DNA of 64,000 nucleotides, from IMG/VR virus record IMGVR_UViG_3300017917_004503, positions 1-64,000 of that record; one strand, given 5' to 3'. The DNA comes from a virus. Shown one piece after another: positions 7,465-33,488 of this stretch; positions within the stretch are counted from its first letter, which is position 1; each line of letters opens with the position of its first letter. A program made the position numbers and the translations under genes. The notes below the pieces were generated by a model that was given only the letters and a program-made list of their open reading frames with translations, was not told the origin of the DNA and ran no database searches.

Positions 7465-7469
7465 AATAA

Positions 7470-8444
7470 ATGAAAAGAGCTCTAATCACAGGAATAAACG
7501 GACAAGATGGAAGTTATTTAGCAGAATTTCTGATCGAAAAGGGATACCAAGTTTTTGGTACAATTAAGAGGAATTCGGTTTCAGAAAACCAAACTTCCCG
7601 ATTAAATTCAGTCTACGATGTCATAAAGGGCAATCTGATTTATGCTGATTTATTAGACGTTCCTTCTTTAATTCATGCTTTAAAAGTTTCAGATCCTCAC
7701 GAGGTCTATAATTTGGCTGCACAGTCTCATGTTAGAATTTCTTTCGATCAACCCATATACACTGCTCAATCGACAGGTTTAGGTACTTTGAATCTATTGG
7801 AGTCTATTAGAATACACAATCCCAAAATTAAAATGTATCAAGCATCATCTTCTGAGATGTTTGGTAATTCTATAGATAAAGATGGATTTCAAAGAGAAAC
7901 TACTCCAATGAATCCAGTGTCTCCTTATGGATGTTCTAAGGTATTCTCATACAATATTTGCAGAAACTACAGAAATTCATACAATATGTTTATTAGTAAC
8001 GGTATTCTGTTCAATCACGAATCACCCCGTAGGGGTGTTAATTTTGTCACTAATAAGGTTGTTAAGGGTGCGGTAGAGATTATGATGGGTAAAAAGAAAA
8101 AACTCGAATTAGGCAATCTAAAAGCGACTAGAGATTGGGGACATGCTAAAGATTACGTTAAAGCAATGTGGATGATTCTCCAATTGGAAACTCCGGACGA
8201 TTTTGTTTGTTCTACTGGAATTTCACATAGTGTAGGTGATCTTGTCGAATACGTTTTTACAAAATTGGGTTTGGATTGGGGTGAACACATCGAAATAGAT
8301 TCTAAGTTTTTTAGACCAGAAGAATTAGAGGATCTCAGAGGGGATTCGAGTAAACTAAGAAAAATGACCGGTTGGGAGCCAAGTTACTCTTTCGAGACGA
8401 TGCTAGACGAAATGATAGATTATTGGGTAGAACATTATAACTAA
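7470..8444 (+). CDS. gmd: GDP-mannose 4,6-dehydratase
   Basis: 324 residues, close to the usual length. It converts GDP-D-mannose to GDP-4-keto-6-deoxymannose, the precursor of GDP-L-fucose, GDP-rhamnose, GDP-colitose and similar sugars. The NADP-binding TGINGQDGSYL is at residues 7-17. The catalytic SSSEMFG segment and the YGCSK tyrosine/lysine pair are present, as are NLAAQSHV, FNHESPRRG and TRDWGHAKDYV, which are typical of Gmd rather than of other short-chain epimerases. It is the last gene of the sugar operon and is followed by a strong terminator. Paired with a GT6 enzyme, whose known members often act on fucosylated acceptors, it hints at a fucose-like product. Confidence 0.93.
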   Translation: MKRALITGINGQDGSYLAEFLIEKGYQVFGTIKRNSVSENQTSRLNSVYDVIKGNLIYADLLDVPSLIHALKVSDPHEVYNLAAQSHVRISFDQPIYTAQSTGLGTLNLLESIRIHNPKIKMYQASSSEMFGNSIDKDGFQRETTPMNPVSPYGCSKVFSYNICRNYRNSYNMFISNGILFNHESPRRGVNFVTNKVVKGAVEIMMGKKKKLELGNLKATRDWGHAKDYVKAMWMILQLETPDDFVCSTGISHSVGDLVEYVFTKLGLDWGEHIEIDSKFFRPEELEDLRGDSSKLRKMTGWEPSYSFETMLDEMIDYWVEHYN

Positions 8445-9806: not shown

Positions 9807-9808
9807 TC

Positions 9809-11512
9809 ATGATTCAAACTAGACTTCACACATATCTTACATGTAAGCTTCACAACATTTCAGAAGCAGAAGAATCTTCTAAGAAAGATAAGAATAAGGG
9901 GGAACCTACAGTTAAATATAAGGAAAATCTTTCTATAAGAGAGATACCTGGAGGGGAATCTGCTTTTAAATCTTATATGGGCATGTTTACTCAAGCAATG
10001 AATTGTTTAGATTCGATTCACGCTTTAGCCAAAGCAGCAGATCCGAAATCGAGCTCTTTGGAGAATTTCGATTCAGAAAGAAGAGATATTGGAGTCAAGG
10101 CTGGGAAAACAGAAGAAGCCGTTAACAATGCATGGAAAAAACTTGCACAGGTAGCTTCAGATTTGTTGAATGTCATACCTGAATCGATAAAGAAAAATGA
10201 TGTGATTAAAAAGTATAGGGACGAGCAAGCTAAACTAGATGCAGAATACCAGGATCAAAGTGGAAAGAAAATGAAACGTGATTACTATCTTTCCAAATCA
10301 GAGGAGATCAAAGAGAAGTATTCAGATATGATCGATCCAACTCAAGTCATGTCTTTGACTAAAATGAGTGAGGCTGCCAAACTTTACTTTTTAGCACTTA
10401 AAAACTTTTACAGGGGATCGCAAGTTGAAATTGAATTCATAAAGAATAAATCAAAGGAAAATGAAGAGGTCATCCAAGAATTTTTCGAGAGAGCGGGATC
10501 AGCAATGGAATCTTTAATTCTCAGTGAAAAATTTGCATCAAAAAATATACAAACTTACGAATCGGTAGTATTCGAAGGTATAGCACAAGGTTTAAAAAAA
10601 GTTGTAGGCAAATTAAAAGACGAACCTGTAGGAGATACCGATACCGTAACTTTAAAATATGCGGCTGATAATTTATTAGGTTCACTAATTTCTCTTGCTA
10701 ATGAAATTGATAACGTAATAGCTTATAAATCAGTTGTACAGGGTAGAGAAACGGAAGCTGGAAAAAGAGCAGCTGAGGAGGCAAAGAACTCAGCAGAGGA
10801 AATGATAAAATTCGTAAGGGATTCAGTCGAATACATAAACGGGAATCCTGATAAAGGTATACAAAGCGTTGAAGACGTCTTATCTGACTCTAAGGCTAAC
10901 GTTACACACTCCGAGATAAAGGAAAAGCTGAACGAAATAGCAAACGGTGTAACCAGAATAACTAGAAATGACGGTTTACTTCAAAAATGGAAAACACAGG
11001 TACTTGGGGAAAAAAGGGAAAAAACAGCATCAGGTTCATATCTAGAAAAAGGTAAAGAACTAATGTTTCAGGCAAATGAGATTATGAGAGAAATCTCAAA
11101 AAGAGCAAAGCTTGAGCAGGATGTGAAAAAGCTCGAGCCAGATCAGCTTATTAAAAGAGCAATTAACGCATACAAGGGGAAAGACTCTGATTCGAAAGAA
11201 TCCAAAAAACCTTCAAGAATTAAGAAAAGAAGCGACTATAAATCTTTTAGTTCTAAACCGAAGCAAGAGGACAAAGAAGCAATAAAGGATTTCCAGGAGA
11301 GATTGGTAAAGATTGGTGCTCTACCATCAGGATATAAAGAAGGAGAGTATGACGAAATTACCCAACAAGCAGCGAAAAAGGCAATGTCACACATAGGATT
11401 AGTTACGGGAAAGGTCTACGATACTACAGATGACGCATTTAAAGATTTCACCGTCGATGTTCAGTTCTACGGAGATAATTTAGATAAGATTAAGGACATT
11501 ATCAAAAAATAG
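9809..11512 (+). CDS. Putative virion protein, companion of the preceding gene
   Basis: 567 residues, helical and charged, starting 2 nt after the previous stop. The design parallels its neighbour. A short N-terminal peptide ends in NISE followed by AEE (residues 16-22), which fits the I/LxE processing pattern of T4-like prohead proteases. A long Lys/Glu-rich helical body follows, then a basic linker (about 465-490) and a C-terminal PGBD-like region (about 495-545, EAIKDFQERL and GEYDEITQQAAKKAM). A cell-wall-interacting or DNA-co-ejected virion protein is plausible. There is no recognised catalytic motif and no close family recognised. Confidence 0.5.
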   Translation: MIQTRLHTYLTCKLHNISEAEESSKKDKNKGEPTVKYKENLSIREIPGGESAFKSYMGMFTQAMNCLDSIHALAKAADPKSSSLENFDSERRDIGVKAGKTEEAVNNAWKKLAQVASDLLNVIPESIKKNDVIKKYRDEQAKLDAEYQDQSGKKMKRDYYLSKSEEIKEKYSDMIDPTQVMSLTKMSEAAKLYFLALKNFYRGSQVEIEFIKNKSKENEEVIQEFFERAGSAMESLILSEKFASKNIQTYESVVFEGIAQGLKKVVGKLKDEPVGDTDTVTLKYAADNLLGSLISLANEIDNVIAYKSVVQGRETEAGKRAAEEAKNSAEEMIKFVRDSVEYINGNPDKGIQSVEDVLSDSKANVTHSEIKEKLNEIANGVTRITRNDGLLQKWKTQVLGEKREKTASGSYLEKGKELMFQANEIMREISKRAKLEQDVKKLEPDQLIKRAINAYKGKDSDSKESKKPSRIKKRSDYKSFSSKPKQEDKEAIKDFQERLVKIGALPSGYKEGEYDEITQQAAKKAMSHIGLVTGKVYDTTDDAFKDFTVDVQFYGDNLDKIKDIIKK

Positions 11513-11714
11513 AAAATTTTTACGGATTCAGCCGAAACTTTTTCCCAATTCTTAGCTAAAATCAATATCTATTGAGCCCCGGTTTGATATCCTATACTAT
11601 CTAAGAGGCCCTAAGGCCCAAACTTTAGTTTAACTTATACCCAAACCCAAAGCTTAAATACAGAAACTTCTTCACCTTTTTACAGTATGATTTATAAATA
11701 ATTTGACATAAATC

Positions 11715-12905
11715 ATGGCTAAAACTTCAGGATCATCTTTTTCATTCGCAGCTCTAGATAAAGAGCTTTCTAAAATAGCAGGATTTGAAACTGGTTCGAT
11801 TTTATCAACAAATACTTTCAGTGAGGTTGATGAATGGATTCCAACTGGTAACTATCTTCTAAATGCACAAATTTCAGGAACGCTTTTCGGAGGTGTCCCT
11901 AATAGCAGATCATTTGGTGTTATGGGAGATCCCGGCACAGGTAAATCTTTCTTTTGTTTAAATGTTGTAAGAGAAGCACAAAAAATTGGATACGACGTCA
12001 TCTATTGTGACACTGAAGGTGCTATCGATAAATCTGGGGCTTTAAAATTTGGGATAGATGCTGATAGAATACGTTATCAACCAATTCAGACAGTATCTCA
12101 ATTTCAAACATTCGTTGCGAATGTATTAGATATGGTGAAAAAAGCTAGAGCAGCTGGTGAGAAACCTAAGATTTTATTGGTATTGGATTCCTTAGGCATG
12201 CTAAGTACTGATAAAGAGTTGGCAGATGCTATGAAAGGACATAATGCTGCAGACATGGGTGCTAAAGCAAAGGAACTGAGAAAACTATTTAGAGTTATAA
12301 CACTGGATTTAACCGCTGCTAAAATACCTTTAATCTGTACAAATCACGTTTATGCTGGCGGAGGCTATGTTCCAACCAAAGAATCTTCAGGTGGTGATGG
12401 ACCAATTTTCGCAATGTCTGTTGTTTCTTTCTTGTCAAAAGCACAATTAAAAGATGGTGCTGGAACTAAAACTGGTATAGTTGTTACCTCTACACTTAAG
12501 AAAAGTAGATTCACCATACCAGAACAAGTTAAATTTCACATTTCGTTTGCTCATGGTATGAATCCTTATGTTGGGTTACAAGACTATGTTTCTTGGGATT
12601 CTTGTGGAATTGAAAGAGGAAAGTTCGAAGAGGTAAAAAATCCAGAAACCGGTAAGAAAGAATTAGTGTTTAAGCCAAGTGCATCTTCAACCCGTTGGGG
12701 TGTTAAACATTTGGGCAAAACTGTTGCATCAACCGAATTATTTACAGATAAGGTTTTCACACCTGAGGTTTTAAAGATGTTGGATGAGAATGTGATTAGA
12801 GACAAGTTCAAATTACCAGATTTAGCAGATCATACTGATATTTTAGGTGATCTTGATGAACAAGAACAGGATGATACAAACTATTCTCAAAATGAACAAG
12901 AATAA
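11715..12905 (+). CDS. uvsX: UvsX/RecA-type recombinase
   Basis: 396 residues, close to T4 UvsX. Walker A GDPGTGKS is at 71-78 and Walker B KILLVLDSLGM at about 152-162. The L2-like and C-terminal RecA core regions follow, and the tail is acidic (GDLDEQEQDD), as in RecA and UvsX. It catalyses strand exchange during recombination-dependent replication and works with gp46/gp47 encoded downstream. The upstream gap of about 200 bp contains TATAAATA at 11693-11700 and TAATTTG at 11699-11705, so the promoter class is ambiguous. It is first in an operon that runs to 18382. Confidence 0.95.
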   Translation: MAKTSGSSFSFAALDKELSKIAGFETGSILSTNTFSEVDEWIPTGNYLLNAQISGTLFGGVPNSRSFGVMGDPGTGKSFFCLNVVREAQKIGYDVIYCDTEGAIDKSGALKFGIDADRIRYQPIQTVSQFQTFVANVLDMVKKARAAGEKPKILLVLDSLGMLSTDKELADAMKGHNAADMGAKAKELRKLFRVITLDLTAAKIPLICTNHVYAGGGYVPTKESSGGDGPIFAMSVVSFLSKAQLKDGAGTKTGIVVTSTLKKSRFTIPEQVKFHISFAHGMNPYVGLQDYVSWDSCGIERGKFEEVKNPETGKKELVFKPSASSTRWGVKHLGKTVASTELFTDKVFTPEVLKMLDENVIRDKFKLPDLADHTDILGDLDEQEQDDTNYSQNEQE

Positions 12906-13188
12906 AATTAAATTCAAATACTTGTTAAATGTCTGGAAATTTTTACCAGAGTATCCGACGAAAGAAGACTTGATCTACGAAATCTCAGTTTATCTTATTA
13001 AAGACGGTAGATCAAACGGTGAATTCTCAATTCAGACATTTAACTCGATATTTGGCTCTAGCTGGGAAAAAAACAAGCAAGGAGAAATTATCAAATGTAT
13101 GATTGAAGATGGTGATTTGATAGAATCTTCTAAATCTACTGCTGCCAAGAAATGGTACAAAATAAACCCAAAATATAATTTAAACTAA
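12892..13188 (+). CDS. Small conserved-looking hypothetical protein
   Basis: The likely start is ATG 12892 (MNKNKIKFKYLLNVW), giving 98 residues and a 14 bp overlap with uvsX. The longer reading from 12847 would overlap by 59 bp. The sequence is helical with basic ends and an SSKSTAAKKWYKINP tail. The helix/strand pattern suggests a small winged-helix-like protein, but no family is recognised. It shares the recombination operon, and its stop overlaps the next ATG (TAATG). Confidence 0.6.
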   Translation: MNKNKIKFKYLLNVWKFLPEYPTKEDLIYEISVYLIKDGRSNGEFSIQTFNSIFGSSWEKNKQGEIIKCMIEDGDLIESSKSTAAKKWYKINPKYNLN

Positions 13189-13817
13189 TGATTTTAGGAC
13201 TCTCTGATTATAAAGATAAGTATGACTTTTCTGGTGTAACCGGTGTAATCCACGTCGGAGGACATCACGGTCAAGAATATGAAGACTATAACAATTTTTT
13301 CCGTAAGGATCTAAATATTCATTGGTTTGAACCTATTAGCGAATCGTTTGCTACGATGATTCAAAATATAGGATTGAAGCAAAACAACATTTTCTATAAT
13401 TTTGCATTGGGATCTGAAAAAACTTGGAAAAAAATGTGGAGAGATCTTCAGAATAATGGACAGAGCTCATCTTTTCTTAAACCCTCTAGACATCTTGAAA
13501 TATTCCCACATATAACTTTCAGTGAAACCCCCGATGAAATAGAAATTTACAGACTTGATGATCTCTGCATAAGAGATTCAAATGTTCTAGTAATGGACAC
13601 ACAGGGCTATGAACTTGAAATTCTTAAAGGTGCTAGTGAAACATTGCCCTTTATTGATCATATATTTTGTGAGGTGAACATCAATAACGTTTACGAAAAC
13701 TGTCCCGATTTGCAGTCTATTAATTCTTTTCTTGAAAATTACGGATTTCATTTAAAGGAAAATTGGTGGACATCTAATGATTGGGGTGATTGCTATTGGA
13801 ATAGAAATACAAATTAA
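13188..13817 (+). CDS. FkbM-family methyltransferase
   Basis: 209 residues. The SAM-binding loop GVIHVGGHHGQEYEDY (about 20-35), WFEPISE and the C-terminal VLVMDTQGYELEILKGA motif (about 132-148) are typical of FkbM methyltransferases, which usually O-methylate sugars or glycans. It is oddly placed between uvsX and the replicative helicase and far from the sugar operon, so it looks like a cargo gene inserted into a core operon. The start overlaps the previous stop by one base. The substrate is unknown; glycan methylation is the family norm. Confidence 0.85.
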   Translation: MILGLSDYKDKYDFSGVTGVIHVGGHHGQEYEDYNNFFRKDLNIHWFEPISESFATMIQNIGLKQNNIFYNFALGSEKTWKKMWRDLQNNGQSSSFLKPSRHLEIFPHITFSETPDEIEIYRLDDLCIRDSNVLVMDTQGYELEILKGASETLPFIDHIFCEVNINNVYENCPDLQSINSFLENYGFHLKENWWTSNDWGDCYWNRNTN

Positions 13818-21287: not shown

Positions 21288-23864
21288 ATGGATTTTGATA
21301 GATCGTTAATATTTCCTCCTAAACTTTTATACGGGTACACTGTATTCGGCACTATATCTGTTGATCAAACTTACAATGATCCTGGAAATCCTTATAACGG
21401 ATTCCCCTATAGATGGCAACTGAACATAAACGTTTCACCTCAACAACATTCGAATCCCGACACTCCTACCCCTTATATCTATGATGCAAATGACATCACT
21501 GAAGGTATGTGGATTGGCCAAATCAACGGTTACACTTACAAAATAGTTGATATAATTTCTGTAGCAGGGAATGAGAATTTAGTTGTTATAGTAGAAGATA
21601 CTGATTTTTTAAATTTAATAGCTTCTCCTGAACAAACTGGAAACAATGCTCCGTATGAGGATTTGCCTTTATTAATATTTAATTTGGATGACAACGGAAA
21701 TCCAATATTGAATCCGATCCAATCTCAAAGCAGTCAGCTTCCTGATTATTCCTACTGGATAAATGACATTGAATCTAGATTTAGATTTAGAAACTATTAT
21801 CAAAAATTTTTTTATATTCCACCTGGAGAAAATCCAACTGGATTGACAGGTGGAGACCCTGTTTACTTATCTGTGAACTCAACCTTCATTAAGGTTGATT
21901 CTACAAATCAGGACCAGGTCGATAAACTTTTTGGTTTTGTTAGTGGTGGAAATTTACCCCTACCTGGACATCTTACAGTAACTCCTTCTGGTAAATACTC
22001 AACAGATTTACCAAATCTTCCTGGTGTAACTGGTGACGTTTTATATCTAGACACTGTTTCTGGGAGCAATAATCTTACTAACGTAAAACCTGCTACAGGA
22101 CCGGTTAAACCGGTTTATATTAAAATTACGGACACTACAGGATTACTATTAACATCTGGAGGCGGAGGTGGAGGCGGAGGAAACGATATAGCGGTCTATG
22201 ACTCTTCTAATGTTGAAGTGACTCCCGGTGTAACTGGTTTCAAGTTTGATGGTGATGCAGTTGTTACAGCATCTGGTGATTTCGTAACAGTTACTGTAAA
22301 CTCTGGATCTAGTGGTTCATCAGGATCTAGTGGTTCGTCAGGATCTAGCGGTTCATCAGGAACTAGTGGTTCGTCAGGATCTAGCGGTTCATCAGGAACT
22401 AGTGGTTCGTCTGGATCGTCCGGATCTAGTGGCTCGTCCGGATCTAGTGGCTCGTCCGGGTCATCAGGATCCTCTGGAAACACTGGTCCGACCGGATCTG
22501 TTGGAGCTACCGGAGCGGGGGTTCCTACTGGAGGTGCAACTGGACAGTTTTTAGTAAAGTCATCAGGTGCAGATTATGCAACCGAATGGCAGGATTTAGT
22601 TCCTTCTGGAGCTATCTATCAGTTTGGTGCAACATCTGGATTCCCTGCAACCGGTTCAACCGCTGCTCTTTATATTTCAACAGGAACTAATGAAGGTTGG
22701 TACTGGACAGGGACAGCATATAAGGCACTTAGTCAATATGATAGCGACATAACAGTTTCTTTATCAGGAGGAAAAACTTTAGGAAGATATAGCACCGGAC
22801 AAACCATACCAGCAACGGGAAAAACCCCAAAAGACGTCATTCAATTATTGGCTGTTGAACCTATCAATCCTACAGTTTCATTAACTTCTTCGACTACCAT
22901 TGCTTTTAATCAAACCGCAATTAACAATGTACTGAATTTGAGTTATACCATTAATAGTTTGGGTGCAACGATATCAACATGTTCACTTGAGTGGAGAAGA
23001 GGTGGAGTTGGATCTTGGACTGTTTTATCAACATCAACGACAACTCCAACTACATATACCCATAGTTTAACAGATACTAATTATAACACACTAGCTTTTA
23101 ATTATAGATATATTGTCACTGACACTGTCGGTGGAACCACAACTGCAACACTTAACATTACTCCAGCTTCTTACGTTGCACCTAGTATTTCATTAACAGT
23201 TGCTGGAGTTACACTCACCTCCCCAGAGACGAATTCGACGAGAGAAAAAGGTAACGTTGATACGAATCTAAGCGGAACCGTCACTAGAAATAGTGCGAAT
23301 GTAGCCCTTACTAGTTATACCCTACAATTTCAGGTAAATGGTGGAGCTTTCAGTGATATAGGTAGTCCTGTTTCAATTGGACCTGGTACTAGCTCTATTC
23401 CTCTAACCAATCACAATCCTGTAGCTAATAACACTGCTAATACTATAGGATATAGAGTAAAAGTTATTGACGATTATCAGACCTATTTAGGATCACAGGT
23501 TTATTCTTCTACTTCAACAGTTACGTTTCTTAATCTTATTTTCTATGGTCCAAGCTCAACAGTTCCGACAACATCAGCTAACGTTAGAGCTTTAGGTAGT
23601 AGAATATTCACGACCGGAAGCAATCCTTTTAATTTAAATACAGGAAATACACTTGTTAATTTCACAGCTGCTATGCCAAATACTTTATCAATTACACAGG
23701 TGATAGATTTAGACGCTTTAAATGCTAATATTACGTCTAGTTATATTAACAATCCATTTAACGTTAATGACGCTGCAGGCAATGCTACAGCTTATAAGGT
23801 ATATACAATGACAATTGCTTCACCTTATTCAACAGACCATAGACATCAAATAACTAGAGCTTAA
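21288..23864 (+). CDS. Large tail fibre with GSS/GTS repeat tract
   Basis: 858 residues. A baseplate-side domain (about 1-285) ends in a run of eight glycines. A short beta segment (NDIAVYDSSNVEV) leads to a Gly-Ser-Ser/Gly-Thr-Ser triplet tract (about 340-396), then GPTGSVGATGAG, and a long beta-rich C-terminal region with Ig-like or fibronectin-like repeats. The KTPKDVIQLL stretch followed by NPTVSLTSS also occurs in related form in the next fibre. The triplet tract looks like a trimeric collagen-like rod without proline. Ser and Thr in the tract are potential O-glycosylation sites. Confidence 0.8.
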   Translation: MDFDRSLIFPPKLLYGYTVFGTISVDQTYNDPGNPYNGFPYRWQLNINVSPQQHSNPDTPTPYIYDANDITEGMWIGQINGYTYKIVDIISVAGNENLVVIVEDTDFLNLIASPEQTGNNAPYEDLPLLIFNLDDNGNPILNPIQSQSSQLPDYSYWINDIESRFRFRNYYQKFFYIPPGENPTGLTGGDPVYLSVNSTFIKVDSTNQDQVDKLFGFVSGGNLPLPGHLTVTPSGKYSTDLPNLPGVTGDVLYLDTVSGSNNLTNVKPATGPVKPVYIKITDTTGLLLTSGGGGGGGGNDIAVYDSSNVEVTPGVTGFKFDGDAVVTASGDFVTVTVNSGSSGSSGSSGSSGSSGSSGTSGSSGSSGSSGTSGSSGSSGSSGSSGSSGSSGSSGSSGNTGPTGSVGATGAGVPTGGATGQFLVKSSGADYATEWQDLVPSGAIYQFGATSGFPATGSTAALYISTGTNEGWYWTGTAYKALSQYDSDITVSLSGGKTLGRYSTGQTIPATGKTPKDVIQLLAVEPINPTVSLTSSTTIAFNQTAINNVLNLSYTINSLGATISTCSLEWRRGGVGSWTVLSTSTTTPTTYTHSLTDTNYNTLAFNYRYIVTDTVGGTTTATLNITPASYVAPSISLTVAGVTLTSPETNSTREKGNVDTNLSGTVTRNSANVALTSYTLQFQVNGGAFSDIGSPVSIGPGTSSIPLTNHNPVANNTANTIGYRVKVIDDYQTYLGSQVYSSTSTVTFLNLIFYGPSSTVPTTSANVRALGSRIFTTGSNPFNLNTGNTLVNFTAAMPNTLSITQVIDLDALNANITSSYINNPFNVNDAAGNATAYKVYTMTIASPYSTDHRHQITRA
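22304..22475 (+). repeat. 9-bp triplet-codon tract encoding GSS/GTS (fibre 1)
   Basis: In-frame tandem 9-bp units (GGATCTAGT, GGTTCATCA and variants) encode about 19 Gly-Ser/Thr-Ser triplets. Third-base variation forms local blocks of identical units, which suggests expansion by slippage or recombination. Confidence 0.9.
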
Positions 23865-23865
23865 G

Positions 23866-26800
23866 ATGCCATTAACACCAGGATTACAATTACCCTTTGG
23901 AGTACAACCAGTCAACCCTGTACCGGTTGACACATACTCTGGCCCTTATTCGGGAGTAACTGAATCAGCTGCTCTGAGCTCTGCAAATTCTTCTATACCT
24001 GGAGCTTTAAGATTTCAGTCTTTAGAAGTTAGATTAATATACGGTCCAACCGGATCTGCAGTACCCTATAAATATTGGTATTATGGTGGAACCGGGGATA
24101 GTGATTTAGTTCTTTTTTCAGCTGGTGGATCTGGTGTAACAGGACCAACTGGAGCATCTGGTAGCTCTGGATCATCTGGTAGCTCTGGATCATCTGGTAG
24201 CTCTGGATCATCTGGTAGCTCTGGATCATCTGGAACATCAGGAAGCTCCGGAACATCAGGAAGCTCTGGAACATCAGGAAGCTCTGGAACATCAGGAAGC
24301 TCTGGAACATCAGGATCTAGTGGCTCGTCCGGAACATCTGGTTCGTCAGGTTCTAGTGGTTCAGCAGGAACATCTGGTTCGTCAGGTTCTAGTGGTTCAG
24401 CAGGAACATCTGGATTGTCCGGAGCAACTGGAACCTCTGGATCTAGTGGATCTACCGGAACATCAGGATCATCAGGAACTTCTGGATCTAGTGGATCATC
24501 AGGAACCTCTGGATCATCAGGAACCTCTGGATCTAATGGATCATCAGGATCATCAGGATCATCAGGAACCTCTGGATCATCAGGATCATCAGGAACCTCT
24601 GGATCATCAGGATCATCAGGAACCTCTGGATCTTCAGGATCATCAGGAACCTCTGGATCTTCAGGAACCTCTGGATCTAATGGATCTTCAGGATCATCAG
24701 GATCATCAGGTACTTCTGGATCTTCAGGATCATCAGGTACTTCTGGATCATCAGGATCCTCTGGAACTAGCGGTGTTACTGGTCCAACCGGAGCTAATGG
24801 TATATCTGCTGGACAAGTTTATTATTTCAATGAAAGCCAAAATTCTGATGTATCTGGATATAAGGTTTTATCTATAACCCCGAGTGGGGCAGCTGAACAA
24901 ACAGTAACTACGAATTTAACAGGTCTTCAGCAGAATGTTTTGATTTCTGATTATATTACACCTCAGCTTGGATTTAACGTTATACCTGCAGGAAATCAAA
25001 GATTTCATATTCATCTTTTAAAACCAGCTTCTAACGATAATATTTCTTTGTATGTAGAGATCCAGTTGGCGAATTCGTCTGGAACCCCAATAGGTCCAAC
25101 GATAACATCTAGCGTTGCATCTGTTGGTTGGGTTAGTTCAATAGTTCCAGATACTGTTGAGACTGACATCACTTTATCTACAACTACCATAGATCCAACT
25201 AATAGAATGATAGTTAGACTCTATCTTAATAATAACGACGCAACATCTCACAGCGTTGTATATTATACGGAAGGATCATCATACTATTCTTTCGTTCAAA
25301 CGTCGGTTGGAGCTATAGCAGGAACTAGCGGAACTTCTGGCTCGTCCGGATCATCAGGAAGTTCTGGCTCGTCCGGATCATCAGGAAGTTCTGGCTCATC
25401 AGGAAGTTCTGGATCTAGTGGTCAAGATGGTATTTCTGGAGGTAGACCTTACTTTTTCAATCAGTCTGTTACGCAGACCCCGTTATCATATAAACAACTT
25501 GGACAAAATACTACTGGAGGTATTCAGCAAACAGTAGTCACTAATTTAACATCAAACCAACAAAATGTTTTAGTTGAAAGTTTCATAACTGATGTCGATG
25601 ACCCGTATCTTCTTTTAATCCCACAGGGATTATGGCATTCTTATGTTTATTGGACAAAACCAGCACAAAATGATAATATAACTTATTATTTTACTGTAAC
25701 TAAAAGAACATCAGGAGGGACAGAAACTCTATTGTTTACATCCGATAATAAACAAATTGGATGGGATACTAATAACACTACTCCGGTTGAGGTTGTTGCG
25801 AATGGTGTTGTTCCAACTAACACGTTAAACCTTACCGATAGAATTATAGTAAGTCTATATCTGAATAATAATGAAAATTCCAGTAAAACAGTTACCTTTT
25901 ATACTGAAAATGCAACTTATTCATACATTATAACAACTTTAACAACTCCTTCTGGTACTTCGGGGTCGTCCGGTACTTCAGGGTCTAGTGGCTCTTCAGG
26001 AAGCTCTGGTACTTCTGGATCTAGTGGCTCTTCTGGCACTAGAGGTTCATCTGGTTCATCAGGCACATCTGGTTCATCAGGCACATCTGGTTCATCAGGC
26101 ACATCTGGTTCATCAGGTACTTCTGGACTTGCTGGTATATCAGGGATCAATGGATCTGATGGATCCTCAGGATCCTCAGGTTCTAGTGGAGTGACCGGTG
26201 CATCAGGGTCTTCTGGAAGCAGCGGATCTAGCGGAACGTCTGGATCTTCTGGAAGCAGCGGAACGTCTGGATCTTCTGGAAGCAGCGGAACGTCTGGATC
26301 TAGTGGAACATCCGGGTCTAACGGGTCTTCTGGAAGCAGCGGATCTAGTGGAACTTCAGGATCTAGTGGAACATCTGGATCTTCTGGAAGCAGTGGAACC
26401 TCAGGCTCTTCTGGTTCTAGTGGAACCTCAGGATCTTCTGGAATTAGTGGTTCACAGGGACCAACCGGTTCTACTGGATCTGTTAGCGGACTTGTTCAAT
26501 ATGCAGGTTTAACTTTTACCAGTGGACCTGGATCAGATCTACAAACAATATATAATACCTCTTTGGATCCATCAATAACAGTAGGTACTACCGTAGGCGG
26601 TATAGCAGCTGGTACTACCGCAGGATTTTTATTTGGAAAAAATTTAGTCCAACTTTTTGATGACATATTATTTCCAACTTTATTGCCAACTTACACAATA
26701 CCAACTATAACTTTAACTTCTTCTGTTACTGGAATTTATGAAATCGGAGCTACACTATCTCCAAACCTAACAGCTTCTGGAACTAAAAATGATGCTGGAG

Positions 26801-27513
26801 CTTTTAGTTATCTTGGTATTTCTAGATTACCTAATGGAACTAGTGCGGTCCAAATTGGATCTACTGGATCACCAACGATAGCCTCTGCTACAGCAATACC
26901 GTCACAATTTGGATATGCTAGTCCTAATAACCCGAATTATTCTTATAGCTTCATAAAGGGTGATTCACTCACTGGTCCAGCTCCACTTTCAGGAAATAAT
27001 AGTACATTAGTTTATTCTGCAACTGGTAGCTATAGTGCAGGTTTAGCTAAGCAGAATAATAAAGGTGCAACAGATACACGCACTCCTTTAGTCAGAAGTA
27101 CCAGCGCTCCTCAAGATTCTTCAACGAATTTTGCTGCTTCAAATGTAACTTTGACCGGATATTATCCATATTATTACGGTAAAAGTTCAACACAGCAAAC
27201 AGCTTCTAACATCGTGTCTATCATTCAAAGCGGAACTGGATTTACTAAAGTCGTTGCATCTGGATCTGGATCTTTATCTATGGCTTTCAACGCTTCTAGT
27301 GAATGGCCTTGGTTTGCAATTTTCAGCGGATATTCAACTAAAACAGCTTGGTATGAAACACCTTTAAATAACGGAAGTATTGGATCTCCGACAGATTTGT
27401 TTGCTTCGCCAACGACACTTTCGATTATTTCGCCTGATGGTTATTGGGTTGTTACTTATAAAGTTTACCCTTCAAATAAAATAACCACATTGGGTACAGC
27501 CTCAATTTCTTAA
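23866..27513 (+). CDS. Very large tail fibre with three GSS/GTS tracts and duplicated beta domains
   Basis: 1215 residues. An N-terminal anchoring module (about 15-85, DTYSGPYSG and PYKYWYYGG) is shared with the 27614 fibre. Three GSS/GTS tracts follow (about 96-302, 486-518 and 697-861), separated by two homologous beta domains of about 165 residues (GQVYYFNESQ to VVYYTEGSSYYSF, and GRPYFFNQSV to VTFYTENATYSY). The C-terminal domain (about 870-1215) again carries the LFDDILFPTLLP...PTITLTSS pattern. No S74 chaperone domain is present. It is probably a trimeric host-recognition fibre; the duplicated beta domains are candidate receptor-binding or spacer modules. Confidence 0.8.
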   Translation: MPLTPGLQLPFGVQPVNPVPVDTYSGPYSGVTESAALSSANSSIPGALRFQSLEVRLIYGPTGSAVPYKYWYYGGTGDSDLVLFSAGGSGVTGPTGASGSSGSSGSSGSSGSSGSSGSSGSSGTSGSSGTSGSSGTSGSSGTSGSSGTSGSSGSSGTSGSSGSSGSAGTSGSSGSSGSAGTSGLSGATGTSGSSGSTGTSGSSGTSGSSGSSGTSGSSGTSGSNGSSGSSGSSGTSGSSGSSGTSGSSGSSGTSGSSGSSGTSGSSGTSGSNGSSGSSGSSGTSGSSGSSGTSGSSGSSGTSGVTGPTGANGISAGQVYYFNESQNSDVSGYKVLSITPSGAAEQTVTTNLTGLQQNVLISDYITPQLGFNVIPAGNQRFHIHLLKPASNDNISLYVEIQLANSSGTPIGPTITSSVASVGWVSSIVPDTVETDITLSTTTIDPTNRMIVRLYLNNNDATSHSVVYYTEGSSYYSFVQTSVGAIAGTSGTSGSSGSSGSSGSSGSSGSSGSSGSSGSSGQDGISGGRPYFFNQSVTQTPLSYKQLGQNTTGGIQQTVVTNLTSNQQNVLVESFITDVDDPYLLLIPQGLWHSYVYWTKPAQNDNITYYFTVTKRTSGGTETLLFTSDNKQIGWDTNNTTPVEVVANGVVPTNTLNLTDRIIVSLYLNNNENSSKTVTFYTENATYSYIITTLTTPSGTSGSSGTSGSSGSSGSSGTSGSSGSSGTRGSSGSSGTSGSSGTSGSSGTSGSSGTSGLAGISGINGSDGSSGSSGSSGVTGASGSSGSSGSSGTSGSSGSSGTSGSSGSSGTSGSSGTSGSNGSSGSSGSSGTSGSSGTSGSSGSSGTSGSSGSSGTSGSSGISGSQGPTGSTGSVSGLVQYAGLTFTSGPGSDLQTIYNTSLDPSITVGTTVGGIAAGTTAGFLFGKNLVQLFDDILFPTLLPTYTIPTITLTSSVTGIYEIGATLSPNLTASGTKNDAGAFSYLGISRLPNGTSAVQIGSTGSPTIASATAIPSQFGYASPNNPNYSYSFIKGDSLTGPAPLSGNNSTLVYSATGSYSAGLAKQNNKGATDTRTPLVRSTSAPQDSSTNFAASNVTLTGYYPYYYGKSSTQQTASNIVSIIQSGTGFTKVVASGSGSLSMAFNASSEWPWFAIFSGYSTKTAWYETPLNNGSIGSPTDLFASPTTLSIISPDGYWVVTYKVYPSNKITTLGTASIS
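24151..24771 (+). repeat. GSS/GTS triplet tract (fibre 2, first)
   Basis: About 69 tandem 9-bp units. They fall into homogeneous blocks, for example GGTAGCTCT/GGATCATCT, then GGAACATCA/GGAAGCTCT, then GGATCATCA/GGAACCTCT. Confidence 0.92.
25321..25420 (+). repeat. GSS/GTS triplet tract (fibre 2, second)
   Basis: Eleven 9-bp units between the two homologous beta domains. Confidence 0.9.
25954..26449 (+). repeat. GSS/GTS triplet tract (fibre 2, third)
   Basis: About 55 units, interrupted once by a GLAGISGINGSDG segment. Contains a 27-bp block repeat near 26220-26300. Confidence 0.9.
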
Positions 27514-27556
27514 TTTTCTTGTTAATCTGATTATTCTATGGAAGAGTTGGAAACCT

Positions 27557-27566
27557 GAATATATAG
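27557..27566 (+). promoter_or_regulatory. Late-type promoter box GAATATATAG (P4)
   Basis: Located 47 nt before the ATG of the 27614 fibre, with CCT upstream as in P7. The 5' leader would be longer than at other boxes. Confidence 0.6.
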
Positions 27567-27613
27567 TATTGAATAAATCAACAAAACAAATAAGACCGAA
27601 CTCCCTGTAATAT

Positions 27614-29851
27614 ATGGCAATAAATTTAAGTGATAATATTTTAGCAAAAACCACTGCACCCGCAGATGCTAAATATGGACCTTACTCTGGGGGTAGTACT
27701 GCTGCTGCAATAAATGCAGCGACCGGTTATCTTATCTCATCATATAGATACGAAGGTCTGACTATAGGTTTACAAGTAGGTGCTAACCCGATTGTAGAAT
27801 ATTGGTTTTACGGAGGAATTTTAGATGCAAATTTAACTCAAAAGGTTGTTTCTGGCTCGAATGGTACCTCTGGTTCTTCAGGATCTAGCGGAACATCGGG
27901 TTCTTCAGGATCTAGTGGTACCTCTGGTTCTTCAGGTTCTAGTGGAACATCAGGTTCTTCAGGATCTAGCGGAACATCAGGATCCTCTGGTTTGGGTGGA
28001 TCCTCAGGAACTTCTGGACTTGCCGGTATATCTGGTGTTAATGGATCCGATGGAACATCAGGTTCTTCAGGATCTAGCGGGACTTCAGGTTCTTCAGGGT
28101 CTAGTGGGACTTCAGGTTCTTCAGGATCTAGTGGGACTTCAGGTTCTTCAGGATCTAGTGGGACTTCAGGTTCTTCAGGATCTAGTGGGACTTCAGGTTC
28201 TTCGGGATCTAGCGGAACATCAGGATCTAATGGTTCTTCAGGATCTAGCGGAACATCTGGTTCTAATGGTTCTTCAGGATCTAGCGGAACATCAGGTTCT
28301 TCCGGGTCTAGTGGATCTAGTGGATCGGCTGGAACAGCTGGAGCCCCTGGAGTAGATGGCGCATCTGGAACATCTGGAACAGCGGGTTCAAGCGGTTCCA
28401 CCGGTACATCTGGATCTAGTGGTTCTTCTGGTACATCTGGATCTAGTGGTTCTTCTGGTACATCTGGATCTAGTGGTTCTTCTGGAACTAGAGGATCTTC
28501 AGGCTCTTCTGGAACTAGTGGTTCTAGTGGATCCAGTGGTTCTAGTGGTTCTAGTGGAACATCGCCAACGGTATCTGGATCTAATAATCAGATATTAACA
28601 TCTGATGGTTCAGGTGGAATTGTTTCTGAAACTAATTTAGAGTTTGATGGAAATAAACTATCGGTATTATATCAATCTGGTGATGAAGGTGGTGAAATAT
28701 TTTTAAATAAAGCAGTTACAAATACAACATTAAATGGTGGTATAACAATAGATTCATATCAAAATAAATTAAGATTTTTCGAACAAGGAGGCACTGCAAG
28801 AGGAGCTTATATAGATCTAACAGCATGTGCTGCTGGAGTTGGAACCGATTTATTAAGCGGTGGTGGTGGAGGCGGATCTAATGGATCTTCCGGATCAAGC
28901 GGATCGTCTGGCACTTCCGGATCAAGCGGATCGTCTGGCACTTCCGGATCAAGTGGATCTTCTGGAACCAGAGGTTCATCAGGTTCATCAGGTTCATCAG
29001 GTTCATCAGGAACCAGTGGATTGACTTGTACCTCTTATACAGTAACAGAAACCGCTAACTCCGGTGCAAGTTTCGATTATGAACCCTGTGGATCTCCCGG
29101 AACGGTTATTGGTTATATTCTAACTGCTTTGCAATCTGTTACTTTGTGTGCGGTTAACGGAACAGTAGTTCAGACTAGCGGAACTATATCAATTACAGAT
29201 AACGGTTTATGTTCTGGATCCTCGGGATCATCTGGCTCTTCTGGATCCTCGGGATCATCTGGCTCTTCGGGGACCTCAGGATCATCTGGATCTTCTGGTA
29301 CCAGAGGATCATCAGGATCATCAGGTACATCTGGTCAGGCAGGCGCAAGCGGAACTGTTAATACTATATCTAAATTTACATCATCTACAACAGTAGGTAA
29401 TTCTAACGCCACTGACGATGGCACTACATTCGAGATATCTACATCTAATTTGAAAGTTACATCTAGCGTAGCTGTAGGATCTATTACAGCTTCGGGTGTT
29501 TCTGGTCGAATTGATGCTTCGAATGACGTCGTTGCTTTTTCTACATCTGATATTAGATTTAAAGAAAATATTAAACCGATAGAAAATGCTCTAGATAAAA
29601 TTCAAAAAATTGGAGGATACACTTTCGATTGGAAAGACGATCAAAACCTTAAGGTACTCCATGGATTTTCTGGACCTGATGTTGGTGTAATAGCTCAAGA
29701 GATTGAATCGATATTACCAGAAACTGTAAAAACTAAACCTAATGGATTTAAAGGTGTAAAATACGAAAAAATCGTACCTTTATTAATTCAAGCAATAAAA
29801 GAACTTTCTCAAGAAGTTGAAGATTTGAAAAAAATCAAAAATATACAATAA
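27614..29851 (+). CDS. Tail fibre with GSS/GTS tracts and C-terminal S74 autochaperone
   Basis: 745 residues. An anchoring module like that of the previous fibre (KYGPYSGGST, EYWFYGG, about 20-75) is followed by a long GSS/GTS tract (about 81-316), a beta domain, two shorter tracts, a Cys-containing beta domain (about 475-530), and a C-terminal peptidase S74 intramolecular chaperone (about 640-745, SDIRFKENI and VGVIAQEIESILPE). S74 domains trimerise fibres and then cut themselves off at the Ser of the S-D motif, here S645, with K650 as partner. A coiled coil (IKELSQEVEDLKKI) closes the protein. Confidence 0.88.
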   Translation: MAINLSDNILAKTTAPADAKYGPYSGGSTAAAINAATGYLISSYRYEGLTIGLQVGANPIVEYWFYGGILDANLTQKVVSGSNGTSGSSGSSGTSGSSGSSGTSGSSGSSGTSGSSGSSGTSGSSGLGGSSGTSGLAGISGVNGSDGTSGSSGSSGTSGSSGSSGTSGSSGSSGTSGSSGSSGTSGSSGSSGTSGSSGSSGTSGSNGSSGSSGTSGSNGSSGSSGTSGSSGSSGSSGSAGTAGAPGVDGASGTSGTAGSSGSTGTSGSSGSSGTSGSSGSSGTSGSSGSSGTRGSSGSSGTSGSSGSSGSSGSSGTSPTVSGSNNQILTSDGSGGIVSETNLEFDGNKLSVLYQSGDEGGEIFLNKAVTNTTLNGGITIDSYQNKLRFFEQGGTARGAYIDLTACAAGVGTDLLSGGGGGGSNGSSGSSGSSGTSGSSGSSGTSGSSGSSGTRGSSGSSGSSGSSGTSGLTCTSYTVTETANSGASFDYEPCGSPGTVIGYILTALQSVTLCAVNGTVVQTSGTISITDNGLCSGSSGSSGSSGSSGSSGSSGTSGSSGSSGTRGSSGSSGTSGQAGASGTVNTISKFTSSTTVGNSNATDDGTTFEISTSNLKVTSSVAVGSITASGVSGRIDASNDVVAFSTSDIRFKENIKPIENALDKIQKIGGYTFDWKDDQNLKVLHGFSGPDVGVIAQEIESILPETVKTKPNGFKGVKYEKIVPLLIQAIKELSQEVEDLKKIKNIQ
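27853..28563 (+). repeat. GSS/GTS triplet tract (fibre 3, first)
   Basis: About 79 units with a few interruptions (GLGGSSG, GLAGISGVNGSDG, GAPGVDG). A 27-bp unit coding GSSGSSGTS is repeated nearly exactly several times around 28075-28220. Confidence 0.92.
28874..29017 (+). repeat. GSS/GTS triplet tract (fibre 3, second)
   Basis: Sixteen units following a poly-glycine stretch; an exact 27-bp repeat (GGATCAAGC GGATCGTCT GGCACTTCC) is visible. Confidence 0.9.
29216..29350 (+). repeat. GSS/GTS triplet tract (fibre 3, third)
   Basis: Fifteen units directly before the segment that leads to the S74 domain; local exact repeats of GGATCCTCGGGATCATCT. Confidence 0.9.
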
Positions 29852-29853
29852 TT

Positions 29854-30987
29854 ATGGCAGATCCAGTTGCATATAAATATCAAGTTTCTTCGGGACAAAA
29901 TCTAATTACTACCTATTGGAGTTCAGTCTTTATAGGACTAACTGGTCCTTCTGTTCAGAATTTTTCAGAACCATATATAGATGGCAAGTTGAATTTTAGA
30001 AATGGAATTCAGGCAACAGGTGGTTTTAATTATGTTCTTTATTCTGATGAATATAATCAAGGTTTAGGTATCGAAGAAGCTGATTCGTTAGCAGTTGGCT
30101 GGACTTGTTCATCGGATCAGGGAAGTCTTTTATCACTAATCAATAAAATACCGGAAAGATTTAGACAGGCCGAATTTGGATCATATCAGGAAGCTATAGA
30201 ATGGCTAATCTCTCAAAATAAATATTTTTTGGTTAATAAAAGTTACCCGTCTATTGCTTATAACAACAAGACGATGGTTGCTGCATACGATCCAACATAT
30301 CTTGGATGCTATCCTGATGTTGGTAATTTTTTTTATGATTTATCTGGTATATCAACATCACCAGCACAACTTGAAAATGGCGCTGAAATATCGGGATTGT
30401 CTTATTTTAATTTTGATGAGGGTCTTAGTCAATATGCAAATATTCCTAGTGGGGTTTTATCCACATTAGTATCAACGAATAATTTCGAGTGTAGTATTTC
30501 TATTTGGTTTAAATCTGGAAGTATTCCTTCAGGTGGTTCTAATTATACGATATTTCAGCTATCCGCAAGTTCAGGATCTCCTAACCCTGACTGGTTTAGA
30601 CTTTTTATTAATGATGCAGGTGAACTTTATTCTACGTATACTATAAATCAAAAGGATAATTTTACAGATGATATATTAAATGTTACAGTAGGAGCTTGGT
30701 ATCATTTTGTTGTAACTATAAGTCTTAATAAAACTAGTGGTAAAACCGGCGTTACCTATTATATAAATGGCAGCTTTCTCTCTGGATCAGTTCATAATTT
30801 AGTTACTCCTCCTTTTACTTTCGATGGAGTTGAAGATTATAATCATCTTTTTGCAGCAGCCTCATCATCGGGTGCTATAGACAGCAGTAGTTATTTAAGA
30901 GGAAGTATCGGCTCTTTTTACATTTACTCAGGAATATTAGATTCTTCAGAAGTTTCAAAGTTGTATTATGAAACCAATTTTTATTAG
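29854..30987 (+). CDS. Adhesin with LamG/concanavalin-like domain
   Basis: 377 residues. The N-terminal half (about 1-150) is of unknown fold. Residues about 155-377 form a laminin-G/concanavalin A-like sandwich: YFNFDEGLSQYANIPSG, CSISIWFKSGS, WYHFVVTISLNKTSGKTGVTYYINGS and SIGSFYIYSGILDSSEV are the typical strands. Such domains bind glycans. It starts 2 nt after the S74 fibre and is probably the tip or a side adhesin of that fibre complex. Confidence 0.75.
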   Translation: MADPVAYKYQVSSGQNLITTYWSSVFIGLTGPSVQNFSEPYIDGKLNFRNGIQATGGFNYVLYSDEYNQGLGIEEADSLAVGWTCSSDQGSLLSLINKIPERFRQAEFGSYQEAIEWLISQNKYFLVNKSYPSIAYNNKTMVAAYDPTYLGCYPDVGNFFYDLSGISTSPAQLENGAEISGLSYFNFDEGLSQYANIPSGVLSTLVSTNNFECSISIWFKSGSIPSGGSNYTIFQLSASSGSPNPDWFRLFINDAGELYSTYTINQKDNFTDDILNVTVGAWYHFVVTISLNKTSGKTGVTYYINGSFLSGSVHNLVTPPFTFDGVEDYNHLFAAASSSGAIDSSSYLRGSIGSFYIYSGILDSSEVSKLYYETNFY

Positions 30988-31062
30988 AAACACATTCCAC
31001 CTTATCTACTATAATGTATAATTCACTGTATTTTAATCGGTGAAATTTTTAATATTATAATT

Positions 31063-31335
31063 ATGGCAGAACAAATTAAATTACCAGAAGATCTTATTCT
31101 AGAGATCCAAAAACTAAGAGATGAGCTAACCCAAAATGTTGTTAGAATTGGAAGGCTTAATGTTCAGGCTTCTTTCTATAAAAAGGATCTACAGATTATA
31201 GAGAAAGATCTCGAATTACATTACGAAACCGCTGAAAGAATTTCAATTGATGAAGAAAGACTCCAAGCTAAGGTCATCGAAAAATATGGAACTGGAAAAT
31301 TAGATTTCGAAACTGGAATTTTCTATAAAGATTAA
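31063..31335 (+). CDS. Small coiled-coil protein
   Basis: 90 residues, almost entirely helical with heptad-like Leu/Ile spacing (LPEDLILEIQKLRDELTQNV) and a short C-terminal non-helical end (GKLDFETGIFYKD). It is separated from the adhesin by 75 bp with an AT-rich TATAATGTATAAT stretch. It ends 1 nt before the GT4 start, so the two are coupled. Unknown function; possibly a fibre-associated or chaperone-like protein. Confidence 0.6.
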   Translation: MAEQIKLPEDLILEIQKLRDELTQNVVRIGRLNVQASFYKKDLQIIEKDLELHYETAERISIDEERLQAKVIEKYGTGKLDFETGIFYKD

Positions 31336-31336
31336 T

Positions 31337-32344
31337 TTGAGTACATCGGACAAAATAAAAATTGTTTATGTAACACCCCATCTTTCTACCGGGGGGTTGC
31401 CGCAGTATCTCACGAAGAAAATAGAACTTTTTTCTAAAAGCTCTGACGTTTACTGTGTAGAATATAGCTTTTTAGGATCTGATTTCGTGGTTCAAAGAAA
31501 TAGAATAATAGAAATTCTTGGCGAAAGATTTTTTTCTTTAGATAACGATAAATCTCGTCTAGTTGAGATAATATCAAAGTTAGATCCACATGTAGTACAC
31601 TTTGAGGAATTACCTGAAACTTTTGTAGATTTAAATATTCTCAAAAAAATCTATCATCCTGACAGAAAATATTTCATCTGCGAAACCTGTCACAGCTCGA
31701 CATATGAGCCTTCGATTAAGACGTTCAAACCTGATAAATTCATCATGGTTAACAGGTGGATAGAAGAAAAATTCAAAATACTAGATATACCTTCTGAAAT
31801 ATTGGAATATCCAATAGAACATAAAAAGATAGATAAAAGGGCAAGTTTAGAAAAGATCGGGCTCAACCCGGAGATAAAGCACGTTGTTAATATTGGCTTA
31901 TTTACACCTGGTAAAAATCAAGGTGAACTGTTTGAATATGCTAGATCACTAGAGAAACTTCCAATAGAATTTCACTTTGTTGGTAACCAAGCTCCTAACT
32001 TTGAATCTTATTGGTCCGAATTGATGAAAGAAATTCCTACTAACTGTAGGATTTGGGGAGAAAGAAGCGATGTAGAATTATTTTATCAGGCAGCAGATCT
32101 ATTTGTTTTCACCTCTAAACTCGAATTAAATCCACTGGTAATAAAGGAATCACTATCGTTTAAATTGCCATGTATGATTTACGATCTTCACACTTACAAG
32201 GATGAGTATAAAAATAATCCACTCGTTTCTTTTTTAACACCCGATATGGAAAAAAATACCTTTAAAATTCTAGAAATTTTAGGGTTCGTGAAAAAAATTA
32301 AGAAGAATTATGATAATCCACGAATCGTCAATTTCAATTTATAA
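31337..32344 (+). CDS. Glycosyltransferase, GT4/GT-B fold
   Basis: 335 residues from TTG 31337. The N-domain IKIVYVTPHLSTGGLPQYLTKK (about 6-27) carries the GT4 acceptor-side glycine loop. The C-domain has VNIGLFTPGKNQGELFEYA, and FVFTSKLELNPLVIKESLS, where the E-x7-E pair of retaining GT4 enzymes is recognisable. No membrane segment is present. It lies between the fibre genes and a TibC-type O-heptosyltransferase and overlaps the latter by 35 bp, so it probably extends the sugar placed by that enzyme. That is inference. Confidence 0.8.
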   Translation: MSTSDKIKIVYVTPHLSTGGLPQYLTKKIELFSKSSDVYCVEYSFLGSDFVVQRNRIIEILGERFFSLDNDKSRLVEIISKLDPHVVHFEELPETFVDLNILKKIYHPDRKYFICETCHSSTYEPSIKTFKPDKFIMVNRWIEEKFKILDIPSEILEYPIEHKKIDKRASLEKIGLNPEIKHVVNIGLFTPGKNQGELFEYARSLEKLPIEFHFVGNQAPNFESYWSELMKEIPTNCRIWGERSDVELFYQAADLFVFTSKLELNPLVIKESLSFKLPCMIYDLHTYKDEYKNNPLVSFLTPDMEKNTFKILEILGFVKKIKKNYDNPRIVNFNL

Positions 32345-33488
32345 TGACATTGAAAAGTCTGATAATCACATTTTCAGTAATAAAATAAAAATCAAAATTT
32401 GTTTTGATTATCTACCAAAAGTAACTATTGAATTTGGTGACTTTATGAGAGAACCTTATAAGGTCTATATGATCGAAAAATCTGGTCGAATTTTACACAC
32501 TGATCAAATTTCAACCGGAATTTATACTTTAGCATTTAGAAGATGGATTGAAGACCTTGATATTTTAGTTTATGATAATAAAGATGCGTTAGTAAAAAAA
32601 TTTAACCTCTTTGATAAAATAAAATCAGGAAAGGTTTTAATTGCGATTGAAAGTTCTTCATTAGGTGACACCTTAGCTTGGATCCCCTATGTCAATCAAT
32701 TTATTGAGACTCATAATTGTTCTAATGCAACTGTTACTACTTTTTGGAATGATCTTTTTGAAGATCAGTATCCTGGATTTAATTTAAAATATCCAGGATA
32801 CAGAGAAAATGACATTGATGTTCTTATCGGTGTTGGCTGGTATGATGAAGCAGATCCAAATAAGCATAAGATAGATCCTAGAACAGTCCCGCTTCAAAAG
32901 GTTGCTTCTGATATTTTAGGTGTTGAATATTTGGGTGAAATCAAGCCTAGAATAAAATCAACAGGTAAAAGACCCACAGAGAAAACTAAAAATGTTTGTA
33001 TAGCTACCGAATCAACTGCTGCAGCTAAGCATTGGAATAATCCGAATGGATGGCAGGAGCTAATTAATCTTTTGACCCAATCCGGGTATGTTGTTAATGT
33101 GATACAAAAACAACCAACTCATCTATTGGATGTTGTTGATAAAACTGGTGATATTGACATAAGCGAAAGAATAAATGATTTGATTAATTGTGATTTTTTC
33201 ATTGGAATCGGATCTGGACTTTCTTGGTTAGCATGGAGTTTAGATGTTCCTGTTGTTTTAATCTCTGGTTTTAGTAAACCTTTTTGTGAGTTTAGCGATA
33301 AAACTCTCAGAATCATAGATGAGTCTGTGTGCAATGGCTGTTTCAACAATCCCCAGTATTTTTTCGACCGTGGAGATTGGATGTGGTGTCCCGTACATAA
33401 AGATACTGATAGACACTTTGAGTGTACCAAGGTAATCACTCCTTATCAGGTGTTTCGCCAAATAAATTTCTGGAAAAATACTTTATAA
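32310..33488 (+). CDS. TibC/Aah-type protein O-heptosyltransferase
   Basis: 392 residues. The layout matches bacterial autotransporter heptosyltransferases. A beta-rich N-terminal domain (about 25-105) leads to a GT-B core beginning IESSSLGDTLAWIPYV (a hallmark of the family), and the donor side carries ATESTAAAKHWNNPNGW and FFIGIGSGLSWLAWSL, as in GT9 enzymes. Near the C-terminus four cysteines, C341-x2-C344-x15-C360-x11-C372, correspond to the iron-finger of TibC. These enzymes transfer heptose from ADP-heptose to serines of repeated adhesin sequences. The neighbours are Ser/Thr-repeat tail fibres, which makes fibre glycosylation the obvious hypothesis. Confidence 0.87.
   Translation: MIIHESSISIYNDIEKSDNHIFSNKIKIKICFDYLPKVTIEFGDFMREPYKVYMIEKSGRILHTDQISTGIYTLAFRRWIEDLDILVYDNKDALVKKFNLFDKIKSGKVLIAIESSSLGDTLAWIPYVNQFIETHNCSNATVTTFWNDLFEDQYPGFNLKYPGYRENDIDVLIGVGWYDEADPNKHKIDPRTVPLQKVASDILGVEYLGEIKPRIKSTGKRPTEKTKNVCIATESTAAAKHWNNPNGWQELINLLTQSGYVVNVIQKQPTHLLDVVDKTGDIDISERINDLINCDFFIGIGSGLSWLAWSLDVPVVLISGFSKPFCEFSDKTLRIIDESVCNGCFNNPQYFFDRGDWMWCPVHKDTDRHFECTKVITPYQVFRQINFWKNTL

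Follow-up and report, generated by a model that had tools for sequence, protein, structure and literature searches.

A candidate two-enzyme cassette, built around a thumbless TibC-like glycosyltransferase, for O-glycosylation of collagen-like phage tail fibres

The closest described relatives of the enzyme considered here are TibC and Aah, members of the bacterial autotransporter heptosyltransferase (BAHT) family (TIGR04414; PDB 4RAP, 4RB4). TibC modifies Ser and not Thr, and its beta-hairpin thumb links dimers into a dodecamer, while thumb mutants stay dimers and do not modify TibA. The stretch analysed here, referred to below as the window, covers positions 1 to 64,000 of the 151,373-base IMG/VR virus record IMGVR_UViG_3300017917_004503. 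In it, a gene for a TibC-like protein overlaps one for a family 4 glycosyltransferase (GT4), and both lie in the tail and neck region near three genes for collagen-like tail fibres. The comparisons reported here make it fairly likely that these two enzymes form a cassette that O-glycosylates the phage's own fibres.

Glycosylation of viral proteins by virus-encoded enzymes, and of collagen-like proteins by dedicated ones, has been described in other systems. Mycobacteriophages encode enzymes that glycosylate virion proteins, and these glycans sit on the C-termini of capsid and tail tube subunits (Freeman et al. 2023, cited in PMC12619734), whereas the acceptor proposed here is the rod of a fibre. 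Mimivirus encodes both collagen-like proteins and collagen glycosyltransferases, L230 and R699 (PMC9546862), although these use hydroxylysine and UDP-glucose, and their acceptor chemistry and host are unrelated to those of the phage cassette. In Clostridioides difficile, the collagen-like surface protein BclA3 has a dedicated glycosyltransferase, SgtA (PMC7157674); this is a different system, that of a bacterial spore. Proteins of the same type as the phage enzyme, by structure or sequence, occur in uncultured phages (A0A6J5SVC1 and A0A7S9XE01) and in Microcystis phage Mel-JY01, and the Aah/TibC or glycosyltransferase labels on these entries are automatic or partial. A public library already lists one phage protein under an Aah/TibC label, and virion glycosylation in mycobacteriophages and the collagen glycosyltransferases of mimivirus are likewise known, while the literature we found, in a search that most subscription journals lay outside, names no substrate for a phage TibC-like enzyme.

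The phage is T4-like as judged by its neck, terminase and sheath genes, the latter two named from sequence. The three fibre genes, the GT4 gene and the TibC-like gene are open reading frames (ORFs) in a single orientation, and the region is arranged as follows:

21288-23864, + strand: collagen-like fibre 1, with one GSS/GTS tract at 22305-22520 (24 triplets)
23866-27513, + strand: collagen-like fibre 2, with tracts at 24124-24807, 25321-25446 and 25954-26484 (149 triplets)
27614-29851, + strand: collagen-like fibre 3, with tracts at 27854-28564, 28865-29026 and 29216-29359 (113 triplets) and a C-terminal Peptidase_S74 chaperone domain
29854-30987, + strand: LamG/concanavalin-like protein between fibres and enzymes (Pfam PF13385, 44 bits), possibly a further virion protein
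31063-31335, + strand: conserved 90-residue ORF, the left border of the cassette slot, which precedes the cassette or, where the slot is empty, directly precedes the neck gene
31337-32344, + strand: GT4 glycosyltransferase (Pfam PF00534, 42.5 bits), with a TTG start
32310-33488, + strand: putative TibC-like O-glycosyltransferase without the beta-hairpin thumb, assigned by TIGR04414, the 4RAP match, predicted fold and conserved residues
33534-36023, + strand: neck/head-closure protein, the right border of the cassette slot, assigned by phrog_679 (head closure Hc2) and by slot comparison

An earlier, sequence-only reading of this region had placed the two enzymes directly downstream of the fibres; the shared orientation holds, but the LamG-like ORF (29854-30987) and the 90-residue ORF (31063-31335) intervene.

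The protein encoded at 32310-33488 scored 259.4 bits against TIGR04414, above the curated cut-off of 200, and matched TibC (4RAP) at 4e-54, bearing out the homology that had been proposed from its layout. An AlphaFold model built from 26 phage sequences (predicted local distance difference test, pLDDT, 86.5) displayed N-terminal strands and the GT-B catalytic fold, and its best structural match was again TibC 4RAP, with a template modelling (TM) score of 0.85, although this is a prediction only. A search for an identity with the lipopolysaccharide (LPS)-type GT9 enzymes WaaC and RfaQ gave 18.6 bits against a cut-off of 185.3 and 16.9 against 437, with TM scores of 0.38-0.54 to WaaC chains, and this candidate was rejected. 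The residue roles and iron-finger Cys of TibC have been described (PMC4358343), and we therefore mapped them onto the phage protein. Residues 117-128 read SLGDTLAWIPYV, and alignment to TibC equates its catalytic base D110 with D120. The donor residues T226, K230, R286 and W305, whose loss had been raised as a possibility, are retained as T236, K240, R287 and W306, and the predicted four-Cys iron finger was recovered, with C341, C344, C360 and C372 aligning with TibC Cys 339, 342, 358 and 370. No variation in the catalytic Asp and Lys, the Trp or the four Cys was seen across the 106 phage sequences counted. In contrast, the adenine-contacting position equivalent to R286 is Arg in 47 of the 106, the others having Thr, Val, Leu or a different residue. 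Heptose is thus a plausible donor sugar for this protein, while loss of the Arg in about half of the phage relatives suggests that the donor may not be general.

The three fibres were found to contain seven Gly-X-Y tracts of 14-79 triplets each, 286 triplets in total, with 415 Ser and 87 Thr, so that the several hundred Ser/Thr residues initially estimated now stand as a count of 502. The description of these repeats as proline-free was nearly right, as five Pro occur among the 286 triplets. In these tracts 84% of triplets have Ser at Y, while X is Ser in 63% and Thr in 26%. None of 2000 shuffles of the fibre 2 protein yielded even a run of eight triplets, and no strand-loop-strand target repeats of autotransporters (TIGR04415) were detected in the 151,373-base record when searched up to an E-value of 10. 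IMG/VR contigs, including L003, L010-L014, L018 and L029-L031, often terminate inside repeat tracts, suggesting that short-read assemblies under-report fibres of this kind.

The segment that holds the thumb in TibC has 20 residues in the phage protein, whereas it has 29-31 in 78 of the 80 bacterial relatives measured. Of 107 phage-side sequences, the majority have 19-26 residues at this point and approximately 12 phage sequences retain 29-33. In a maximum-likelihood tree, a fully supported split set 27 bacterial sequences apart from 62 others, the larger side comprising 57 phage sequences and five from bacterial assemblies (L089, L090, L654, L091 and L092). L091 and L092 look like phage contigs, as both contain fibre-like repeats and L091 also has a sheath-like gene. 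This tree is unrooted, and the thumb may have been lost on one side of the split or gained on the other. The phage enzyme shares with BAHT enzymes a score over the family cut-off, the fold, the catalytic Asp and Lys, the donor residues and the iron finger, while it differs from them in the missing thumb, its separate branch, the failure to find TIGR04415 repeats in its genome, its fibre neighbours and its GT4 partner or fusion. The designation 'TibC-type' therefore stands as regards homology, donor residues and iron finger, and not as regards the thumb, the branch or the target repeat. Since the thumb and the autotransporter target repeats, two of the BAHT features tested, were not found, we place the enzyme in a branch that is sister to BAHT, outside the family itself.

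Chance-level co-occurrence of enzyme and tracts had been named beforehand as a refuting outcome, and we tested for it from both sides. On the enzyme side, phage loci were clustered at 85% identity and one per cluster was kept; the resulting 57 distinct loci were compared with 120 neutral viral loci of similar length, with kinship handled by this clustering only. In 29 of the 57 phage loci a GSS-like tract was no more than 5 kb away from the enzyme, versus 0/120 neutral loci (p 1e-17) and 0/34 thumb-bearing bacterial loci (p 5e-8 versus the phage loci); in many of the tract-bearing phage loci the fibre is the adjacent gene. As the strict Gly-X-Y pattern missed the tract of L090, these tract counts are conservative. 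On the fibre side, records of at least 20 kb were selected solely by a GSS tract, a GAQ tract or a neutral 14-base word, and an enzyme above the family cut-off was present in 21/50, 8/46 and 0/35 of them, respectively. The difference between GSS and GAQ records had a p value of 0.014, or 0.003 with two near-duplicates removed. While GSS records are longer than neutral ones (median 59 kb versus 42 kb), the difference persisted within length bands (p 0.02 and 0.04). Whole-record scans of GAQ records from the phage's own lineage that have the enzyme revealed GSS tracts elsewhere in L003, L011 and L028; in L017 and L020, both fragments, such scans did not find any. Enzyme and tracts hence co-occur above chance from either direction.

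The same pairing was seen with the thumbless enzymes of bacteria. In L089, a metagenome-assembled genome (MAG) of the Gammaproteobacteria, two predicted lipoproteins consisting largely of GSS repeats lie 0.8 to 2 kb from the enzyme. In L654, another genome of this class whose enzyme is 51% identical, a predicted lipoprotein of 112 residues with a GTS/GTT/GSS tract lies 107 bases off, while in the Schekmanbacteria MAG L090 a GSS-tract protein lies 5.1 kb away, so that a GSS-repeat protein is near the enzyme in 3/3 cases. The lipoprotein status of the L089 and L654 proteins was judged by eye from their signal sequences. The enzyme occurred in two of 369 Gammaproteobacteria genomes. A tract match was present in 23 of the 369, including the two with the enzyme; several of the matches are not of the Ser/Thr type. 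As these bacterial proteins share little with phage fibres besides the tract, the tract is the best acceptor candidate. At L089:5905-9077 and L654:837-2419, the thumbless enzymes thus stand beside predicted lipoproteins with GSS/GTS tails and acidic runs, and together they may form a bacterial surface glycoprotein system.

The 31337 protein scored 42.5 bits against Glycos_transf_1 (cut-off 26.4) and is modelled with a GT-B fold resembling BshA; its E263-x7-E271 motif is invariant. The GT4 and TibC-like genes share a 35-base overlap. A GT4 recognised with the window protein shares a single ORF with the TibC-like domain in 12/56 phage loci and lies within 6 kb in 29/56. The TibC-like domain lies in an ORF of at least 560 residues in 31 of the 56 loci, and Pfam scans of a portion of these identified GT4 and, in some, an FkbM methyltransferase. 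The Mel-JY01 protein (PP395634.1, 4750-8430; L007) is annotated as 'methyltransferase FkbM', but our scans detected a GT4 domain, a TibC-like domain at the C-terminus (317 bits) and no FkbM domain. In the phage's own clade, the slot between the 90-residue ORF and the neck gene is either occupied by the cassette or empty, indicating that the cassette behaves as a unit. In G141 the slot is empty, a GSS fibre is present and the TibC-like enzyme is elsewhere in the record. Several records (G098, G099, G142 and G155, the records of L478, L434, L451 and L494) carry two TibC-like copies, one in the slot between fibre and neck genes and the other at a different place, where its ORF usually measures about 780 residues.

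Based on these results, we infer the fibre as the substrate of the cassette, and Ser O-glycosylation, heptose, GT4 extension and a dimeric enzyme as its probable features. The TibC-like protein would act first as a priming enzyme, using a nucleotide sugar to attach a single sugar to Ser of the G-[S/T]-S tracts. The acceptor would most likely be the near-constant Ser at the Y position, just ahead of each Gly, and the preference of TibC for Ser matches tracts whose Y position is almost always this residue. The donor in this phage would likely be ADP-heptose of the host, as the TibC donor residues are retained and phmmer searches with E. coli HldE, GmhA and GmhB returned no match to ADP-heptose synthesis genes, either in the phage itself or in the set of TibC loci examined. 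The GT4 enzyme would then extend the primer with a second sugar, both enzymes being one protein in many relatives. Given the missing thumb, the working form would probably be a dimer bridged by the iron finger and not the dodecamer ring of TibC, and such a dimer would fit a thin, extended repeat better than it would an autotransporter beta-helix. A dense glycan may make the Pro-poor rods stiffer, more soluble or more resistant to proteases, or it may adjust contact with the host and its receptor. More broadly, we lean slightly towards the view that the thumb needed for the dodecamer has been lost from a mostly phage-borne, widespread branch of the TibC family, and that this branch has become a dedicated O-glycosyltransferase of Ser-Gly collagen repeats. 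Paired with GT4 extenders, such enzymes would coat the tail fibres of phages and also, in a few bacteria, lipoproteins with GSS repeats. If true, this would explain the Pro-poor GSS/GTS rods found in the fibres of many large aquatic phages as scaffolds for dense glycans, and would supply a function for many of the phage enzymes currently taken as glycosyltransferases that modify the host surface. It would also provide a simple repeat acceptor for studying how a TibC-fold enzyme works without the dodecamer, and would make the question of whether phages sugar-coat their own fibres a testable one.

Several observations weigh against fibre glycosylation by the cassette. Activity, acceptor, donor and any modification of the fibres are predicted from comparison. 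As TibC thumb mutants are inactive on TibA, activity of a thumbless enzyme must be shown anew. In about half of the phage loci no tract lies 5 kb or less from the enzyme, and the enzyme is missing from 29/50 GSS records, though many contigs end inside repeats. The make-up of X and Y is much alike in GSS records with and without the enzyme, and tract composition alone thus does not predict its presence. In a test within the phage's own terminase clade, cassette and GSS tracts were only weakly linked (10/12 versus 10/18), in the right direction but with a one-sided p of 0.12, and the co-occurrence tests are corrected for near-copies and not fully for phylogeny. Finally, glycosyltransferases adjacent to the fibres of pelagimyophages have been proposed in print as modifiers of the host surface (PMC7029224).

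This last role, in which both enzymes would alter the LPS core or O-chain and thereby block superinfection, is an unlikely account of the cassette, even though the phage carries an extra set of sugar genes that would suit it:

584-8444, + strand: sugar gene cluster of the same phage, with an epimerase fused to a C-methyltransferase, a HAD protein fused to a nucleotidyltransferase, GT6, a GT7C-like enzyme and a GDP-mannose 4,6-dehydratase

The characterised members of the family act on protein Ser, LPS heptosyltransferase models score far under their cut-offs and their structures fit much worse than TibC, the enzyme is more strongly associated with Ser/Thr-rich than with GAQ tracts, and the thumbless bacterial relatives are likewise near GSS-repeat proteins. 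The cluster could supply or extend a glycan of either the virion or the host surface, its link to the cassette being unproven. We give a similarly low likelihood to glycosylation of another virion target, such as a globular fibre domain, the LamG-like protein or another neighbour, with the GSS tracts travelling along as flexible linkers. The position of the LamG-like protein between fibres and enzymes and the unchanged tract make-up of GSS records without the enzyme are consistent with such a target, but the bacterial GSS proteins are without an evident phage fibre domain, leaving the tract as the common element.

Hitch-hiking is less likely again; on this reading the fibre region of large aquatic phages is plastic and gathers both glycosyltransferases and repeat fibres, which would be functionally unrelated. 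While the cassette slot is variable and sometimes empty and the clade-level association is not significant, neutral viral samples gave 0/120 and 0/35, GSS records exceeded GAQ records (21/50 versus 8/46), and the pairing recurs in bacterial genomes. Modification of phage DNA appears very improbable. Some phage glycosyltransferases do modify DNA, and the relative L004 has its TibC-like gene near a thymidylate-synthase-like gene, but a homologue of the latter was not found in this phage, the cassette sits among structural genes, and the characterised family members are protein O-glycosyltransferases. The L004 locus (9776-13774) contains other glycosyltransferase-like ORFs alongside these two genes and no repeat fibre, and its acceptor may differ.

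Other genes of the record were noted in passing. An FkbM methyltransferase at 13188-13817 of the window could, like the sugar cluster, serve a virion or host-surface glycan. At 4077-5432 of the window, hmmscan detected a PF00483 domain at 1.2e-10, and a looser genome search for this domain, which had missed it, was a false negative. Beyond the window, at 148933-150822 of the genome (L525), an ORF of 629 residues reads from its start as a full-length DnaK/Hsp70.

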